DNA of 64,000 nt from Terriglobia bacterium (GTDB lineage: Bacteria; Acidobacteriota; Terriglobia; Bryobacterales; Bryobacteraceae), in contig JAJPIT010000080.1 in assembly GCA_021324615.1 (NCBI GenBank), positions 1-64,000 of the forward strand, written 5' to 3'. The notes beneath the pieces are model-generated. The model had not been told where the DNA came from. It made no database searches and saw only the letters and a list, made by a program, of their open reading frames with translations. Of the stretch, positions 1,843 through 21,441 are shown piece by piece. Numbering within the stretch: position 1 is the stretch's first letter; each line of letters begins with the position of its first letter. The position numbers and the translations under genes are program-made.

Positions 1843-3903
1843 CTAGGCCAGGCCCAGTTGATCGAGGACAAACGCGTAATAGAACGCAGTCTCTTTCAAA
1901 TGTTCGTAGCGGCCGCTGGCGCCGAAATGGCCGCTGCCCATCTCCGTTTTGAGCAATAAAAGATGACCGTCGGTTTTGGTGGCGCGCAGTTTGGCCACCC
2001 ATTTGGCGGGTTCCCAGTAGGACACGCGCGGATCGTTGAGCCCCGCCGTCGCCAGAATCGCCGGATAAGCCTTGGCTTCGATGTTTTCATAGGGGGCGTA
2101 GGATTTGATGTAGTCGTAGTAGCGCTGCTCGTTGGGGTTGCCCCACTCCTCGTATTCGCCGATGGTCAGCGGCAGCGTCGGGTCGAGCATGGTGTTCAGG
2201 GCGTCGACGAAGGGCACCAGCGCCACCACCGCCTTGAACAGTTCCGGACGCATGTTGCAGACCGCGCCCATCAGCAGGCCGCCGGCGCTGCCGCCCATGA
2301 TGGCCAGGCGCCCCGGCGAGCAGTATTGTCCGGCGATCAGATGCTCGGCGCAGGCGATGAAGTCCGTGAATGTGTTCTTTTTCTTCAGCAGGCGCCCTTC
2401 TTCATGCCAGGGCTTTCCCAGATCGCCGCCGCCGCGGCTGTGGGCGATGGCGTAGACGAATCCGCGGTCGAGCAGGCTGAGCCGCTCGGAGGCGAATCCG
2501 GGATCGATGCTGATGCCGTAGGCTCCGTAGCCATACAGCAGCAGCGGCGCGGAGCCGTCCTGCTGGAAACCTTTCTTATAGACCAGCGACACCGGGATCC
2601 GGACGCCATCCGGCGCCGCGGCATAGATCCGCTGCGATTCGTACTGCGAGGGATCGTAGCCGCCGAGCACCTCCTGCTGCTTTTTCAATTCCCGCCGGCG
2701 CGTCCGCATGTCGTAATCAAACACCGAATGGGGCGTGGTCAGCGAGGTGTAAACAAACCGCAGCGTGTGAGTGTCGAACTCGGCGTTGGCGCCGGGCGTG
2801 ACGGTGTAGACCGGCTCGGGGAAGTCAATGTAATGGGGTTCGCCGGAAAAGGGCCGGATCTGGATGCGCGTCAGGCCGCGGTCCCGCTCTTCGACCACCA
2901 GATAGTCGCGGAAGGCATGGACGCTTTCAATGGTGGCGTCCTCGCGCGCCGCGATGATCTCTTTCCAGTTGGCCTTGGAGGGATCGCCGAGCGGAGCCTG
3001 GACGACGCGGAAGGTCCGGGCCTGGTCGTTGGTGCGGATGAAGAACGAATCGCCGTGATGGGTCAGGTCGTATTCGATTTCGGGAACACGCGGCAGAACG
3101 GTTTTAAACCCGGCGCCGGGATCATCCGCGCCGATATAGCGGACCTCCGAGGTCAGCGAGCTGGAGATGTGAATGAGGATGAAGGCGCGGCTGGAGGTCT
3201 TGGCGAGTTCGACGGTGAAGCGCTCGTCGGCCTCGTGATAGACCAGCGTGTCTTCGGCCGCGCCCAGGCTATGGCGGAAAATCCGGTAGGGCCGGCGCGC
3301 CGCGTCGAGCACGCAATAAAAGAACGTGCGGCTGTCGTTGGCCCATTCGAGGGTGTAGTAGGTGTTGGGAATCCGGTCGGCCAGCAGCTCGCCGGTTTCC
3401 AGATCCTTCACCCGGATGGTGTACTGTTCGTCGCCGTCGTAGTCCTCCGAATAAGCCAGCAGACGATGATCCGGGCTGACGGCGAAGTTGCCGATGCGGA
3501 AATATTTTTTTCCTTCGGCCAGGACGTTTTCGTCCAGCAGAATCTCCTCCGGCGCCTCGAGCGAACCCTTTTTCCGGCAGTGGATCACGTATTCCCTGCC
3601 CTCCTCGGTGCGGGTGTAATAAAAATAGCCGTCGCGCGGAACCGGGACGCTCAAATCGGTCTGTTTGATGCGGCCGAGCATTTCGGCGTAGAGCTTGCCG
3701 CATAAAGGACCGATGTGGGCCGTCATGGCCTTGGTGTACTCGTTTTCGGCTTCGAGATAGCGCAGCGTATCCGGGTCGGAGCGGTCGCGGAGCCAGAAAT
3801 AAGGATCGATACGGGTCTCCCCGCCGCCGTGGATCGGATGAGGAACGATCTTGGCGACGGGCGGGGCCAGGTCTGAAGCAGTAGCGGAACGAAGAGTGGT
3901 CAC
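1843..3903 (-). CDS. ptrB: oligopeptidase B (S9A prolyl oligopeptidase family)
   Basis: Serine peptidase of 686 residues, the same length as E. coli PtrB, predicted to cleave short peptides after Arg/Lys in the cytoplasm; no signal peptide is seen. The N-terminal part (about 1-400) is the beta-propeller that limits substrate size. The C-terminal alpha/beta hydrolase carries the nucleophile elbow GGSAGG (Ser539), the Asp in GLNDPRV and the His in GSGHFG, so the triad is complete. EEWGNPNE and HSRGGGDLG are typical of the oligopeptidase B branch. The GTG start is preceded by a CATAAT hexamer ending 10 bases upstream (3914-3919) inside the galE stop region, so it may have its own promoter as well as galE read-through. 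galE ends 11 bases upstream. Confidence 0.93.
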   Translation of the reverse strand: MTTLRSATASDLAPPVAKIVPHPIHGGGETRIDPYFWLRDRSDPDTLRYLEAENEYTKAMTAHIGPLCGKLYAEMLGRIKQTDLSVPVPRDGYFYYTRTEEGREYVIHCRKKGSLEAPEEILLDENVLAEGKKYFRIGNFAVSPDHRLLAYSEDYDGDEQYTIRVKDLETGELLADRIPNTYYTLEWANDSRTFFYCVLDAARRPYRIFRHSLGAAEDTLVYHEADERFTVELAKTSSRAFILIHISSSLTSEVRYIGADDPGAGFKTVLPRVPEIEYDLTHHGDSFFIRTNDQARTFRVVQAPLGDPSKANWKEIIAAREDATIESVHAFRDYLVVEERDRGLTRIQIRPFSGEPHYIDFPEPVYTVTPGANAEFDTHTLRFVYTSLTTPHSVFDYDMRTRRRELKKQQEVLGGYDPSQYESQRIYAAAPDGVRIPVSLVYKKGFQQDGSAPLLLYGYGAYGISIDPGFASERLSLLDRGFVYAIAHSRGGGDLGKPWHEEGRLLKKKNTFTDFIACAEHLIAGQYCSPGRLAIMGGSAGGLLMGAVCNMRPELFKAVVALVPFVDALNTMLDPTLPLTIGEYEEWGNPNEQRYYDYIKSYAPYENIEAKAYPAILATAGLNDPRVSYWEPAKWVAKLRATKTDGHLLLLKTEMGSGHFGASGRYEHLKETAFYYAFVLDQLGLA

Positions 3904-3913
3904 GGTTGCTCCA

Positions 3914-3919
3914 ATTATG
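3914..3919 (-). promoter_or_regulatory. -10-like hexamer before ptrB
   Basis: CATAAT on the minus strand, 10 bases before the GTG of ptrB, overlapping the galE stop codon. No convincing -35 is seen. It belongs to the set of close -10 elements described in the findings. Confidence 0.35.
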
Positions 3920-4898
3920 GACGCGATGCGCCGGCGCGCGCGGACTGGTAAAATTCCCAGGCGTCTTGAACGATCCGGTGCAGATCGCTGCGCACGGGCT
4001 TCCAGCCCAGCGTGCGGCGGAGTTTGGCGGAATCGGCGACCAGTTCGGCGGCGTCTCCCGGGCGCCGCGGTGCGATGACGTAGGGCACCTTGCGGCCGGT
4101 GACTTCCTCCACGGCCCGCATGACTTCCATCACCGACTGGCCGCGTCCGGTGCCGGCGTTAAAGACGCCGCTGGCGCCTCCCTCCAGCAGATAATCGAGC
4201 GCGGCGAGGTGCGCCTGGGCCAGATCGGTAACGTGAATATAATCGCGGATGCAGGTGCCGTCCGGAGTGGGATAATCTTCGCCGAAAATTTTCACCGGCT
4301 CGCCGCTGTCGACGGCGCGTAGAAGCAGCGGTATCAGGTGGGTTTCCGGCTCGTGCTGTTCGCCCAGGCCGGCCTCGGGCAGGGCGCCGCAGGCGTTGAA
4401 ATAACGCAGCGCGACGCTGCGCAGGCCGCGGAACTCATCGAGCTGCCGCAACATCCGCTCGACGATCAGCTTGGACTCGCCGTAGGGACTCACCGGCGCC
4501 AGAGGAGCGTCCTCGGGGATGGGAATGGTTTCCGGATTGCCATAAACGGCGGCGGTGGAGGAAAAGACCAGCCGCTTCACTCCGGCCCGGGCCATGGCCG
4601 CCAGCAGGGACAGCGTTCCCCCCACGTTGTTTGAAAAATAGAGCTCCGGCTCGCGGGCCGATTCGCCCACGGCGATGAATGCCGCAAAGTGCACCACCGC
4701 GTCCACGCCGGCCAGCAGCGGCGCCAGCGCGGCGGTTTCCTGCAAATGAACCACGCGCAGCAGATGGGGCGGCACGTTCTGCCGGTGGCCGCGCGATAGA
4801 TCGTCCACCACGAGCACCTCGAATCCGCGCTGCAACAGTTGATAGGTGGTGAGAGAGCCGATGTATCCGGCGCCTCCTGTCACCAGGATGTTCGGCAC
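3915..4898 (-). CDS. galE: UDP-glucose 4-epimerase
   Basis: Extended short-chain dehydrogenase of 327 residues that interconverts UDP-glucose and UDP-galactose for cell-surface polysaccharide and Leloir metabolism. The N-terminus has the NAD-binding GGAGYIGS motif, the catalytic pair is Tyr139/Lys143 in SPYGESK, and FSSTAAVYG and GTCIRDYIHV are GalE hallmarks. I chose the GTG at 4898 because the protein then begins directly at the first Rossmann strand (VPNILVTGG) and a perfect TATAAT ends 6 bases upstream; an open frame continues to 4967 but adds only an Arg-rich, non-conserved leader. oligopeptidase B follows after 11 bases. Confidence 0.93.
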   Translation of the reverse strand: MPNILVTGGAGYIGSLTTYQLLQRGFEVLVVDDLSRGHRQNVPPHLLRVVHLQETAALAPLLAGVDAVVHFAAFIAVGESAREPELYFSNNVGGTLSLLAAMARAGVKRLVFSSTAAVYGNPETIPIPEDAPLAPVSPYGESKLIVERMLRQLDEFRGLRSVALRYFNACGALPEAGLGEQHEPETHLIPLLLRAVDSGEPVKIFGEDYPTPDGTCIRDYIHVTDLAQAHLAALDYLLEGGASGVFNAGTGRGQSVMEVMRAVEEVTGRKVPYVIAPRRPGDAAELVADSAKLRRTLGWKPVRSDLHRIVQDAWEFYQSARAGASRP

Positions 4899-4904
4899 GA
4901 TCCG

Positions 4905-4910
4905 ATTATA
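4905..4910 (-). promoter_or_regulatory. -10 hexamer of galE (leaderless arrangement)
   Basis: Perfect TATAAT on the minus strand, 6 bases before the GTG of galE. Transcription would begin at or next to the start codon, and no Shine-Dalgarno is present. The expected -35 position is GC-only. Confidence 0.5.
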
Positions 4911-4987
4911 CCGGCGCGCGGGCGCCCGGCGGCGGGCGCGGCCGCTCCGCGTTGTTTGTCCCGGCACAATAGAGTTTGACCTGAAAT

Positions 4988-4996
4988 TGTTATACT
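4988..4996 (+). promoter_or_regulatory. extended -10 promoter of the first AT-hook gene
   Basis: TGT followed by TATACT forms an extended -10 element 16 bases before the ATG at 5013. This AT-rich island lies between the divergent galE and AT-hook genes. No 17-base-spaced -35 is visible, which is normal for extended -10 promoters. Confidence 0.45.
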
Positions 4997-5012
4997 TAGT
5001 GCTTAATTAGAT

Positions 5013-5282
5013 ATGGATATCCTCAAAATGATCGCCGAACTGCGGGCCGAGCGCGAGGCGATTGACGAAGCGCTGATCGTGCTGGAAAGGCTGGCCAGAG
5101 ACCGGGGCAAACGCCGCGGCCGCCCGCCCACCTGGTTGAGCGCGATGCGCGGCGCCGCCGGGCAGCAGGATGGACAGATTCGCAGACGGACGCTCAGCCC
5201 GGAGACGCGCAAGCGCATGGCCGAAGCGCAAAGACGCCGCTGGGCGGCCTACCGGAAAGAACAGGCCGCGGCTGAATCCTGA
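5013..5282 (+). CDS. small AT-hook / coiled-coil protein, copy 1
   Basis: Basic protein of 89 residues, function unknown. Residues 1-30 (MDILKMIAELRAEREAIDEA and on) form an amphipathic charged helix suited to a coiled coil. Residues 31-40 contain RGKRRGRPP, an AT-hook core (GRP flanked by Arg) that in known proteins binds the minor groove of AT-rich DNA. The C-terminal part (about 62-82) has the SPETRKRMAEAQRRRWA motif, a helix found in many small basic proteins of acidobacteria and related groups. A paralogue sharing the first 45 residues lies at 38553-38747. The start has no Shine-Dalgarno but a close extended -10. A role as a nucleoid-associated or regulatory DNA-binding protein is an inference. 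Confidence 0.75.
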   Translation: MDILKMIAELRAEREAIDEALIVLERLARDRGKRRGRPPTWLSAMRGAAGQQDGQIRRRTLSPETRKRMAEAQRRRWAAYRKEQAAAES

Positions 5283-5284
5283 CC

Positions 5285-5305
5285 CCCACTGTTGGTTATA
5301 GTGGG
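5285..5305 (+). terminator. hairpin between the AT-hook gene and the crotonase gene
   Basis: CCCACT (5285-5290) and AGTGGG (5300-5305) form a 6-bp stem with a 9-base loop. The right arm overlaps the GGGAG that serves as ribosome site for the gene starting at 5309, so it could act as a weak terminator or mask that site. Confidence 0.35.
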
Positions 5306-5308
5306 AGC

Positions 5309-6082
5309 ATGTACCGGCACCTTCTCCTTCAAAACGAAGGCTCGCTTGCGATCCTCACTTTAAACCGGCCGGAGCGGCGCAACGCGCTTTCGCTCGAACT
5401 GATGCGGGAGTTGATCGACGCCCTGGAGGCGGTTTCCGCCGATGGCTCAACGCGGGCCGTGATCCTGGCGGCGGCGGGGAAGGTTTTTTCCTCCGGCCAT
5501 GATTTAAACGAGCTGGTCAACGGCACCATCGCGGATTACCGGCGGATTTTTGACGTTTGTACGCAGTTGATGACGAAAATCCAGTCGATTCCTCAGCCGG
5601 TGATCGCCCAGGTGCAGGGCATCGCCACGGCGGCGGGATGCCAGCTCGTGGCCACCTGCGACCTCGCGGTGGCCAGTTCAGAGGCCACCTTCGCCACGCC
5701 GGGCGTCAAGAACGGGCTGTTCTGTTCAACCCCCATGGTCGCGCTGACGCGCGCAGTGGGACGCAAGCGGGCGATGGAGATGCTGCTGACGGGCAAACCG
5801 GTGGACGCGCTGTCGGCGCAAGCCGCGGGTTTGGTTAACCGCGTGGTCGCGCCGGCGGAGTTGGAAGCGGAAACGAGAAAACTGGCCTGCGAGATCAGCG
5901 CGGCCAGCCCGCTGACGATTTCGATCGGCAAGCAGGCCTATTACGCCCAAATCGAGCTGGATCAGGCCCGGGCGTATGCCTACGCCAAGGAAGTGATGTC
6001 GATGAACGCGGCCGCCTACGACGCGCAGGAAGGAATCACGGCCTTCCTCGAAAAGCGCCCGGCCTGCTGGAAGGGAAAATAG
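5309..6082 (+). CDS. enoyl-CoA hydratase/isomerase family protein (ECHDC3-like)
   Basis: Crotonase-fold protein of 257 residues. Family hallmarks are the oxyanion-hole segments FSSGHDL and GIATAAGC and the C-terminal trimerisation helices. It most resembles the ECHDC3-type branch (LTGKPVDALSAQAAGLVNRV and the C-terminal EGITAFLEKRPAC pattern). The two glutamates that catalyse hydration in rat mitochondrial hydratase (Glu144 and Glu164, 20 residues apart) correspond here to Gln112 and Gly132, also 20 apart, so ordinary hydratase activity is unlikely; another CoA-thioester reaction is possible. It follows the AT-hook gene after 26 bases, with GGGAG before the ATG. Cytoplasmic. The substrate cannot be predicted. 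Confidence 0.85.
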   Translation: MYRHLLLQNEGSLAILTLNRPERRNALSLELMRELIDALEAVSADGSTRAVILAAAGKVFSSGHDLNELVNGTIADYRRIFDVCTQLMTKIQSIPQPVIAQVQGIATAAGCQLVATCDLAVASSEATFATPGVKNGLFCSTPMVALTRAVGRKRAMEMLLTGKPVDALSAQAAGLVNRVVAPAELEAETRKLACEISAASPLTISIGKQAYYAQIELDQARAYAYAKEVMSMNAAAYDAQEGITAFLEKRPACWKGK

Positions 6083-17443: not shown

Positions 17444-17470
17444 GCCCGGAAGGAACAGGCCGGGCGCTTT
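17444..17470 (+). terminator. terminator-like hairpin after the RND operon
   Basis: GCCCGG (17444-17449) and CCGGGC (17460-17465) with a 10-base loop, followed by GCTTT. It lies between the adaptor gene and the convergent lipoprotein gene. Confidence 0.5.
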
Positions 17471-18014
17471 AGTGAACGATCCGCTCCAACGCCCAGCCGT
17501 TGTTGTAGCGGAACAACAGAACTGGCGGAACGTCCTGGGTAAAATCCCCTTTTTTCACACCCATCAGGGGCAGCGGATCGGGAAAGCACTTCTGCGGGAC
17601 GGCGATGCCGAATTTTCCCGTGACCACCCGCGTCATCGGCTCCGGGCCGTCGCGATCGCTGGAAATTTCGGTCACGGCCAGGTTATAGTCGCCGCGGATC
17701 TGGACATAAGGCCGGGCCATATCGCCGATGGAGACGTCGTCGGCAAATTTCAGATCGCGGCCGGCCGGCTTGAGCCGGGCGAGCTGGCGCCCGCGCTGTC
17801 CCGTCTCGGAGGGCGAATCCCACAGGTCGTTTTCCACGCCGCAGTCGACCTGCTGCGGCGTCAGCATCACGTATTCGGCGTCCAGGTGCAGCGGTGTGCT
17901 CTCGATGATTCCGCGGACTTTCCCGTAATTGAAGTCGTTCGGACCGCAGGCCGCCAGAAAGATCCCGATTCCAGCCAGTAAGGCTCCTTTTTTGATGGAA
18001 TTATGCACTTCCAT
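17469..18014 (-). CDS. hypothetical lipoprotein
   Basis: Protein of 181 residues with a lipoprotein signal: a basic start, a hydrophobic stretch (ALLAGIGIFLAAC) and a lipobox LAAC with the lipidated Cys near residue 23. The mature part (GPNDFNYGKVRGIIESTPLH onward) is soluble with two further cysteines and belongs to no family I recognise. It is convergent with the RND operon and divergent from the cold-shock gene. A GGGGGAAAAG purine stretch precedes the ATG. It is probably anchored in the outer or inner membrane facing the periplasm; no function is assigned. Confidence 0.75.
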   Translation of the reverse strand: MEVHNSIKKGALLAGIGIFLAACGPNDFNYGKVRGIIESTPLHLDAEYVMLTPQQVDCGVENDLWDSPSETGQRGRQLARLKPAGRDLKFADDVSIGDMARPYVQIRGDYNLAVTEISSDRDGPEPMTRVVTGKFGIAVPQKCFPDPLPLMGVKKGDFTQDVPPVLLFRYNNGWALERIVH

Positions 18015-18568: not shown

Positions 18569-19603
18569 GTGAAGGTCGTCATGATCGACGATTCAGCGCC
18601 GGACCGGAAGCTGTACCGGCTGCTGCTGGAGGAGGGATTCGGCAGCGGGCTGCGCTTCTGGGAGGAGAGTCTGGCGGAGCGCGGAATCGAAACCTGCCGC
18701 CGCGTGGCGCCGGACTGCATTCTGCTCGATTACAAGCTCCCGGACATGACCGGCCTGGAGTTTCTGACCCGGATCCGGTCCGGAGACCCGGGAGACGCGC
18801 CGGCCTTCGCCGTGGTGATGCTCACCGGACTCGCCGACGAGCAGGTGGCCGTGGACGCGCTAAAGAGCGGGGCGCAGGATTATCTCGTCAAAGACCGGAT
18901 CACGCCGGAGGCGCTGCTGTCGGCGGTCCGGCGCGCGCACGAGAAGGTGGACCTGCTGCGGACGCTCAAGGCCGAGCGCGACCGGCTGGCGGAGTCGCTG
19001 GCCGAAAAGGAGGTTCTGCTCAAGGAAGTTCACCACCGCGTGAAGAACAATTTGCAGGTGATCGCCAGCCTGCTGCGCCTGCAGGCCTCTTCGTTTGCGG
19101 ACCCGGCGATGGCCGCCGCCCTGCGCGAGAGCCAGAACCGCGTCGAATCCATGGCTCTGATCCATGAACAGCTTTACGAAACCAGCGATCTGCGCGAGGT
19201 GGATCTCTCCGAGCACGCCGGCCTGCTGGCCAACAATCTGTACCGGTCCTATGGCGAGCCGGAGCGCATCGCCATGAGCTTCGCCGTGGAGAGACTGCCG
19301 CTGAGCGTGGACCGCGCGATTCCGGCGAGCCTGATCCTGAACGAACTGATTTCCAACGCGCTGAAACACGCTTTTCCGGGCGGCCGCGGCGGAGCGATCG
19401 AGGTTCGCGGGCGCTCGGAGAAAGGGATGATTGTGCTGGAGGTCCACGACGACGGCGCGGGGGTGGCGCCGGAGCTGGATCTGAAGCGGCCGAATCCGCT
19501 CGGCCTGGAGATCGTCAACATTCTGACCCGCCAGTTGAAAGGGGTCTTCGAGCTGGAGCGGGGCCCGGGGACCACCTTCCGCGTCCGCTTTCCGAACTCG
19601 TGA
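18569..19603 (+). CDS. receiver domain fused to HisKA_2-type histidine kinase
   Basis: Cytoplasmic signalling protein of 344 residues. Residues 1-125 are a receiver with the acidic pair in VVMIDDS, phospho-acceptor Asp54 (ILLDYKLPD) and the Lys in DYLVKDR. A short coiled coil follows, then a HisKA_2 dimerisation helix EVHHRVKNNLQVI (His155/His156) and a HATPase domain with N-box (LNELISNALKHAF) and G1 (VHDDGAGV). All catalytic residues look intact, so this should be an active kinase controlled by its own receiver. The GTG start keeps the full first beta strand; the ATG 12 bases later would remove it. The next gene overlaps by 4 bases, and these two are likely partners. Confidence 0.9.
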   Translation: MKVVMIDDSAPDRKLYRLLLEEGFGSGLRFWEESLAERGIETCRRVAPDCILLDYKLPDMTGLEFLTRIRSGDPGDAPAFAVVMLTGLADEQVAVDALKSGAQDYLVKDRITPEALLSAVRRAHEKVDLLRTLKAERDRLAESLAEKEVLLKEVHHRVKNNLQVIASLLRLQASSFADPAMAAALRESQNRVESMALIHEQLYETSDLREVDLSEHAGLLANNLYRSYGEPERIAMSFAVERLPLSVDRAIPASLILNELISNALKHAFPGGRGGAIEVRGRSEKGMIVLEVHDDGAGVAPELDLKRPNPLGLEIVNILTRQLKGVFELERGPGTTFRVRFPNS

Positions 19604-21441
19604 CTATGGATCCGGCAAGAACGTACAAAATTCTGGTGGTCGAAGACGAAGGGCTGATCGCGCACGACATCGCCGACCGGCTGGCGGCGCTGGGTCACCA
19701 AGTGGTCGCCACGGCGGCCACGGCGGAGGAGGCGATCGAGCGCGCCGCCGGCGCCGATCTGGTGCTCATGGACATCCGCCTGGACGGCCGCGCCGACGGG
19801 ATCGAGGCGGCGGCCGCGATCCGCGCCCGATATCACCTGCCGGTGGTCTTTCTGACGGCGCACGCCGACCGCTCTACGCTGGAGCGCGCCAAGACGGCCG
19901 CGCCGTTCGGCTATATCGTCAAGCCGCTGTCGCACAACTCTCTGAACACGTCGATTGAGATGGCCATGCACAAGCATCGGCTGGAGCGGCAACTGGAGGA
20001 GCGCGAGGCCTGGATGCGCACCGTGCTCGGCTCGGTCGCCGACGCGGTGGTGGTCGCCGACGCCGCCGGCCGCGTGGTGATGATGAATCTCGCCGCCGAG
20101 GTGCTGACCGGATGGCCGCCTGCGGAGGCGCAGGGGCAGCCGGTTGCAAAGGTGGTCGCGTTGGTGGAGGAAAACGGCGCAGGCGCCGGCGAAGATCCGG
20201 TGGCGCTGGCGATGCTCCGGGACGCCGCCGTGCCGCTGGCGCGGAACTGGCGCCTGATTACCCGCAGCGGTCGCCAGATGAGCGTCGAAGGCGCGGCCGC
20301 GCCGGTGAAGACCAACGCCGGAATTATCGGCGCGGCGCTCAGCTTCCGCGACGTCAGCGCGCGCCGCTGGGAGGAGCGGCAGATCCGCCAGTCGCAAAAA
20401 CTCGAAGCGCTCGGGCGGCTGGCGGCCGGCGTCTCCACCGATTACTCGAACCTGTTGGGCATTGTACGCAGCCGGGCGGACCAGTTGCTCGGCCACTTTG
20501 GAGAATACTCGCCCGCCCGCAAGCTGATCGAGGAGATCCAGCAGGCGGCGGCCGCGGCGGACCAGATCAACCGGCGGCTGGCGGCGTTCGGATCGCGTCA
20601 GGTATGCCAGCCGGAGCCGTTCAGCCTCAACGCGCTGCTGCGGCGCTCCAGCAAGTTGATCCAGTCGCTGGCCGGTCCGCAAATCGAGCTGTTGATCCGT
20701 CCCGGTACGGCCACCATGCACGTGCGCGCGGATCCGGGGCAGATCGAGCAGGCGCTGCTCGGCCTGATCCTGCATGCCTGCGCCAGGATGGCGGACGGCG
20801 GGCGGCTGCTGATCGAGACGGGCAACGCCGGAGCGCCGGCCGGCGGCCAGATCGCCGCCTACGCGATGCTGGCGGTGACCTACACCGGCGAAGAAGACGA
20901 TCCGGAGAGCCTGTTTGAGCCGCGGCCGGCCGGCGAACAAGGAATGGCTCTGGCCATGGTGCATGCCATCGTCACCGAACACGGCGGGTATGTTTCGGCC
21001 CAGCGCACCGGCGCCGGCGGCTGCCGCTGCGAAATTCTGCTTCCGGCGGAAGCGGCCGCCGCGCTTCCCTCTGCCCGTCCCTCCTCGCCGCAGAAGGTTC
21101 CCACCATCCTGCTGATCGAAGCCCGCGAGGCGGTGCGCGGCGAGCTTCACAAATTTTTTGAACTCCACGGCTACAACCTGCTGGAGGCGGCCGATGCCAG
21201 CGAGGCGCTGGCCGTGAGCCAGATGCACGAAGGGCCAATTGACGTGCTGATCGGCGATGCGCCGCTGGAAGCGGCCGCGGCGGAACTTCGGCGGGAGCAT
21301 GCGAACTTGAAGGTCCTGGAAATTGTGGACGATTTGCCGCGCGCTTCTCAGCTCCGGCGCCCCTTTACGGAGGCGGCGCTGCTCGAAAAGGTGGAAGCGC
21401 TGCTTCAGGATCGCGCCAGGCTTGCCCCGGCGACGGCATAA
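19600..21441 (+). CDS. receiver-PAS-pseudokinase-receiver protein (degenerate hybrid histidine kinase)
   Basis: Protein of 613 residues. An intact receiver (1-120: VVEDEG, VLMDIRLDG, YIVKPLS) is followed by a PAS domain (about 130-255) and a hybrid-kinase core that has lost its catalytic residues. The H-box reads GVSTDYSNLL where family members have AHDFNNLL, so Thr280 replaces the phospho-accepting His. The N-box reads LILHACARM with His392 in place of Asn. The D/G1 box has become TYTGEEDD, and G2 (GTGLGL) reads QGMALAM. The C-terminal receiver-like domain lacks the N-terminal acidic pair (LLIEAREA) and has Arg in place of the PF Lys (RRPFTE). It overlaps the intact kinase gene upstream by 4 bases, so it is probably that kinase's target, sensor or scaffold. 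No DNA-binding domain is seen. Confidence 0.88.
   Translation: MTMDPARTYKILVVEDEGLIAHDIADRLAALGHQVVATAATAEEAIERAAGADLVLMDIRLDGRADGIEAAAAIRARYHLPVVFLTAHADRSTLERAKTAAPFGYIVKPLSHNSLNTSIEMAMHKHRLERQLEEREAWMRTVLGSVADAVVVADAAGRVVMMNLAAEVLTGWPPAEAQGQPVAKVVALVEENGAGAGEDPVALAMLRDAAVPLARNWRLITRSGRQMSVEGAAAPVKTNAGIIGAALSFRDVSARRWEERQIRQSQKLEALGRLAAGVSTDYSNLLGIVRSRADQLLGHFGEYSPARKLIEEIQQAAAAADQINRRLAAFGSRQVCQPEPFSLNALLRRSSKLIQSLAGPQIELLIRPGTATMHVRADPGQIEQALLGLILHACARMADGGRLLIETGNAGAPAGGQIAAYAMLAVTYTGEEDDPESLFEPRPAGEQGMALAMVHAIVTEHGGYVSAQRTGAGGCRCEILLPAEAAAALPSARPSSPQKVPTILLIEAREAVRGELHKFFELHGYNLLEAADASEALAVSQMHEGPIDVLIGDAPLEAAAAELRREHANLKVLEIVDDLPRASQLRRPFTEAALLEKVEALLQDRARLAPATA

Follow-up and report, generated by a model that had tools for sequence, protein, structure and literature searches.

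A genus-wide degenerate hybrid histidine kinase with an intact N-terminal receiver and a neighbouring HisKA_2 kinase: a probable response regulator built on a dead kinase core

The gene at 19600..21441 of the window (the whole stretch of 64,000 nucleotides that was analysed) encodes a hybrid histidine kinase in which the N-terminal receiver is intact and the catalytic core is dead. The lesions are conserved throughout a clade of orthologues under purifying selection, and the gene lies directly behind that of an intact HisKA_2 kinase. With modest confidence, we read the protein as a hybrid histidine kinase converted into a response regulator, the output of which would be its own dead core under phosphorylation control. 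A narrower form of this reading is put forward more tentatively, at a little under an even chance: REC1 would be the only working part and would drive the dead DHp, CA and receiver domains as a binding output, the ATP pocket having been lost first and the histidine later and independently.

Domain structure and catalytic lesions

The two genes and their domains are as follows.

18569..19603, + strand: intact REC-HisKA_2-HATPase histidine kinase, 344 aa (Pfam HisKA_2 97.5 bits, Response_reg 63.5, HATPase_c 45.9)
19025..19252, + strand: HisKA_2 domain of this kinase, with the acceptor His in HHRVKNN
19600..21441, + strand: dead hybrid kinase, REC1-PAS-psiDHp-psiCA-psiREC2, 613 aa, start GTG 19600 or ATG 19606
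19621..19965, + strand: REC1, the N-terminal receiver, with its catalytic residues present
19966..20367, + strand: signalling helix (part of a continuous helix in the AlphaFold2 model) and PAS domain (Pfam PAS)
20368..20595, + strand: psiDHp, two-helix dimerisation domain without the acceptor His, T280 being encoded at 20437-20439
20596..21069, + strand: psiCA, ATP-binding domain, with His392 (20773-20775) for the N-box Asn, Tyr428 (20881-20883) for the G1 Asp, and a shortened lid
21091..21411, + strand: psiREC2, degenerate C-terminal receiver (A508, R587) with a conserved LHNFFExxGYNLLEA-like block

The first-pass annotation gave the genes a 4-base overlap. This holds for the GTG start at 19600 and not for the ATG at 19606, which is also present in the closest orthologue and leaves a 2-base gap; the two genes are contiguous whichever start is used. 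Pfam recognises REC1 strongly (82.9 bits over the protein) together with the PAS domain, and the HATPase_c match falls below the curated cut-off, with the lowest score among the 44 HATPase_c matches of the genome. The AlphaFold2 model, built from 20 homologues (pLDDT 82), contains the receiver, the PAS domain, the CA lobe and the second receiver. In this model psiDHp forms two long helices (253-299 and 305-331), and an unbroken helix (112-145) joins REC1 to PAS. Foldseek matches of the model include LOV-kinases, LvrB, CckA, ZraS, ShkA and GacS, of which CckA, ZraS and GacS are matched in DHp-CA; the top matches confirm the domains and give no function.

The acceptor His of the H-box is replaced by Thr280 (GVS-T280-DYSN against the canonical GVAHDFNN) and the Asn of the N-box by His392 (LILH392ACARM against LVVNARDAM), as the first-pass annotation had read them. 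The G1 and G2 boxes had been described as gone: this is true of G1 (TY428TGEE against DTGxGM), and G2 is eroded to GMALAM with part of it remaining. The residues now standing at the ATP-site motifs are H392, Y428, E432 and A450. The C-terminal receiver has lost its Lys (R587) as claimed, and of its acidic pair only the second acid (A508), the first being kept as E507. It also keeps the phospho-Asp position, D553, which is not conserved and is Glu in the closest orthologue. The description of the N-terminal receiver as intact stands in full, E15/D16, D58, T86 and K108 all being present. An active hybrid histidine kinase has an acceptor His in its H-box, an N-box Asn with G1 (DxGxG) and G2, and a C-terminal receiver with acidic pair, Asp and Lys; none of these three sets is complete in the 19600 protein. 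Judged by its residues, the core cannot be a conventional kinase, and the protein belongs with the pseudo-histidine kinases of the DivL and RocA kind, which keep the histidine-kinase fold and lose the catalytic residues.

Conservation, age and selection across the genus

Orthologues of the dead hybrid were found in 19 of the 23 genomes of the genus at 44-87% identity, none with an internal stop. A contig search with the single 19600 protein as query yielded distant receivers and one distant kinase only. In a tree of the 19 orthologues and nine intact hybrids of the same family, the dead hybrids group as a single clade (100% bootstrap) on a long shared stem. When the psiREC2 block was searched in 237 genomes of the bacterial family, all strong matches (E below 1e-16) fell within this genus.

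The substitutions seen in the window recur in these relatives. The N-box Asn is lost in 19/19 orthologues, 17 of them carrying His, and the G1 Asp likewise in 19/19 (Tyr in 10, His in 8, Ala in 1). The acceptor His is lost in 18/19, and its position carries ten different residues, with His once. No close homologue retains both His and Asn; such homologues, beside a copy disrupted only by recent mutation, had been named as one observation that would speak against the reading. Since the same catalytic residues are lost across the 19 orthologues, the lesions are more than chance would leave. The sole orthologue with the H-box His, L017 (G016:C484, MSHDYSNL), has a dead ATP site and a dead C-terminal receiver; parsimony permits either a single loss with a single regain or four losses with none, and L017 may be a natural intermediate or a chance regain. 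The H-box position is variable and the ATP-site replacements are uniform, which suggests that the ATP site went first, its loss being fixed in the common ancestor, and that the acceptor His perhaps drifted afterwards.

The same uniformity (N-box His, G1 Tyr or His) could mean new chemistry, by which the core would bind nucleotide or phosphorylate by another route despite its lost motifs, and one genome, G016, does retain the H-box His. We regard such an unconventional enzyme as the least probable of the readings considered here, the aromatic replacements being more simply explained as the filling of an empty pocket. No active enzyme is known to us in which the N-box Asn, the G1 Asp and second Gly, the lid and the acceptor His are all missing.

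Around the H-box, all 19 orthologues follow the His position with an acid, D or E, for all the variety at the His position itself. The E/DxxT/N motif serves phosphatase activity in HisKA kinases, and the residual D-x-x-N here (T280-D281-Y-S-N284) might dephosphorylate a receiver while REC1 drains the kinase of phosphate. A sink or phosphatase of this sort is improbable: 8/19 orthologues have Ser or Gly in place of the +4 Asn/Thr, the nucleotide-binding lobe, a support of phosphatase activity in HisKA kinases, is degraded, and a simple sink would have no need of a selected PAS-DHp-CA-REC2 tail.

With a mean pairwise identity of 0.69, REC1 is conserved better than any other domain, and its catalytic residues are intact in all orthologues sequenced through the active site, the L017 locus being cut off by the contig end before E15/D16. 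Elsewhere in the protein, R290, R348, R349, H392, F520, N526 and T590 have become fixed in the dead clade, and intact relatives show them rarely or not at all. In L027, L028 and L029 a further piece of psiCA is missing, from the F-box through the lid.

Against the closest orthologue, from G010, dN/dS is 0.06 for REC1, 0.11 for PAS, 0.095 for psiDHp, 0.23 for psiCA and 0.40 for psiREC2, the neighbouring genes giving 0.04 to 0.11 in the same comparison. The departure from neutrality is significant in each of the five domains (P 1e-11 to 0.006) and points to purifying selection. The C-terminal half is less constrained than the N-terminal half, and the far C-terminal end may matter less because of this weaker constraint and the psiCA deletions in three members. 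Both features are what a decaying gene would give, in which the catalytic parts are functionless relics and REC1 alone, or nothing, is in use. This is nevertheless very unlikely, as internal stops are absent from all 19 orthologues over their whole range of identity, each domain has a dN/dS significantly below 1, and new clade-specific residues have been fixed in psiDHp, psiCA and psiREC2. These fixed residues, taken with the selection, look like changed function rather than decay. A recent pseudogene was also considered, and is ruled out by the orthologue conservation and dN/dS. The dead catalytic core of the first-pass annotation is thus borne out as a lasting feature, conserved across the genus and selected in every domain.

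The partner kinase, the search for an output and the intact relatives

The 18569 kinase has all its motifs in place: HHRVKNN is invariant and the N-box Asn conserved in 17/17 orthologues checked, and its own receiver is intact. It is the single HisKA_2 match in the window's genome, which is 99%-complete. Of the 18 loci in which the upstream gene could be examined, 17 have this kinase immediately before the dead hybrid; in G016 another contig has a fragment of this kinase type at its end. The exception is G021, where the dead hybrid has no cognate kinase and the only HisKA_2 kinase is a different protein encoded elsewhere. Nineteen genomes carry both the dead hybrid and a HisKA_2 kinase, and the other four (G001, G004, G008 and G014) carry neither (Fisher P = 1e-4, an optimistic value as the 23 genomes are related). 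The proposed coupling to an intact kinase is supported by this position, by the kinase being the only one of its type in the genome, and by the co-occurrence. Pairing and co-occurrence do not prove phosphotransfer from the 18569 kinase, and the kinase's own receiver could be the real phosphate acceptor.

Under the response-regulator reading, the 18569 kinase would autophosphorylate and pass its phosphate to Asp58 of REC1. Phosphorylated REC1 would alter the helix joining it to PAS, and hence, by way of PAS, the dimeric dead DHp/CA core, much as in LvrB (PMC13269768) though with no kinase output. This core and the dead C-terminal receiver would then serve for binding and not for catalysis, most likely engaging another kinase or receiver in trans, as DivL and RocA do.

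The flow of information might also be the reverse, with the dead DHp/CA docking on the adjacent kinase or its receiver and allosterically tuning the balance of kinase and phosphatase activities, and with REC1 phosphorylation serving as feedback. DivL, which has lost both kinase and phosphatase activity, reads DivK~P through its dead core and controls a kinase (PMC4211667), and the pseudokinase RocA binds CovS (PMC7028121). The strong constraint on psiDHp and the intact receiver carried by the 18569 kinase also suit a sensor of this kind. We think it possible but rather unlikely, as REC1 is the best-conserved domain, which fits a dead hybrid placed downstream, and G021 has the dead hybrid without a counterpart of the 18569 kinase. 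An intact N-terminal receiver is moreover, to our knowledge, absent from both DivL and RocA.

No constant output gene was found near the dead hybrid when the flanks of the 19 loci were compared. The neighbours vary by species, and from their translations we take them to be M16-type peptidases, rpsB-tsf-pyrH-frr, RND efflux and dnaK-dnaJ genes. With no neighbour supplying a constant output gene, the first-pass annotation stands in calling the output of the pair unexplained. An ANTAR output was considered and rejected, the one GAF-ANTAR protein of the genome being equally present in genomes without the HisKA_2 kinase. Between the efflux genes and the kinase pair, the window also encodes a small protein with a lipoprotein-like start (17469-18014, - strand), which shows 90% identity in G010.

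The best response-regulator model for REC1 is that of the PhyR family, at 88 bits of a cut-off of 240, and the best model for the 18569 kinase is PhyK, at 147 bits of a cut-off of 750; by these curated cut-offs the two are related kinase and receiver types and not members of the families. Within that limit of both scores lying below cut-off, the models support a matching kinase and receiver pair. The nearest solved receivers to REC1 include PdtaR (1s8n) and PhyR-type regulators.

Other genera contain full-length intact hybrids of the same architecture, often beside a HisKA_2 kinase. Intact REC-PAS-HisKA-HATPase-REC hybrids with all catalytic residues are found in sister genera at loci L030/L060, L033, L061, L068, L074 and L086. 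They probably represent the ancestral state, and since these hybrids lie beside HisKA_2 kinases, the ancestral system was probably a HisKA_2 kinase feeding an active hybrid.

Two further kinase systems were noted. In G021 (L122), the one HisKA_2 kinase of that genome, a PAS-HisKA_2 protein (2671-4452), adjoins a REC-PAS-sigma54 activator (4480-5952) whose receiver resembles REC1; this REC1-type receiver with a DNA-binding output offers a useful comparison. Hybrid kinases of a separate lineage, from the same bacterial family, carry the H-box GGVAGDFNN, in which His to Gly is the sole visible lesion, N-box, G1 and G2 being intact (loci L031/L066 in G023, L036 in G028, L063-L065, L067, L069-L072, L075-L077, L079, L081, L083, L084 and L088). 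By DNA pattern, GGVAGDFNN occurs in exactly one copy per genome in 26 of the 237 genomes (17 genera), and the His versions in 148 genomes. As D-x-x-N is kept, this lineage could be a dedicated phosphatase.

Comparison with known systems

Studied bacterial pseudo-histidine-kinases are few, and DivL and RocA were the main examples found. In DivL, from Caulobacter, the acceptor His is replaced by Tyr and the CA domain still binds nucleotide weakly (PMC4211667). The 19600 protein resembles it, as far as can be told from sequence, in its histidine-kinase fold, the replacement of the acceptor His throughout the orthologues, the lack of kinase activity and the form of a dimeric regulatory module; a lesion conserved among orthologues and under selection, as expected of a pseudo-histidine kinase, is found in all 19. 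It differs in lacking also the N-box, G1, lid and C-terminal receiver and in having an intact N-terminal receiver. It is not a DivL orthologue, which would carry Tyr at the His position and an N-terminal PAS array without receivers; here the residue is Thr, and variable in orthologues.

RocA of group A Streptococcus is likewise a pseudokinase with a degenerate CA domain that acts through a true kinase (PMC7028121). In contrast to the 19600 protein, it is a membrane protein, and its partner CovS is unrelated. We know of no receiver domains in RocA.

LvrB, one of the Rec-controlled histidine kinases and a structural match to the 19600 model (8vc9), likewise has an intact N-terminal receiver that a signalling helix connects to DHp-CA; in the 19600 protein PAS precedes DHp. 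Phosphorylation of the LvrB receiver remodels the helix and frees the CA domains (PMC13269768). LvrB is active and phosphorylates LvrC, whereas the 19600 protein, to judge by its sequence, lacks an active kinase core and has the intervening PAS and a dead second receiver.

The pair also resembles PhyK-PhyR and PdtaS-PdtaR in combining a HisKA_2-type kinase with a matching receiver subtype, at scores below the family cut-offs. PhyR carries a sigma-like domain and PdtaR an ANTAR domain; in the 19600 protein the output part is instead a dead kinase. The intact hybrids of the sister genera share its architecture and HisKA_2 neighbour and differ in their intact catalytic residues.

A literature search on degenerate kinases in Acidobacteria gave nothing relevant, and the literature searched contained no hybrid kinase that is dead at all its catalytic centres but the N-terminal receiver, fixed across a genus and accompanied by a single dedicated HisKA_2 kinase. 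Pseudokinases are known, as are receiver-controlled kinases; their combination here is new to that literature. With a selected lineage across a genus, an active sister form, a dedicated kinase and one orthologue that bears the His, the path that led from kinase to non-kinase is open to reconstruction and testing. Should the receiver indeed drive the dead core, the protein would be a response regulator that has a former kinase as its output domain.
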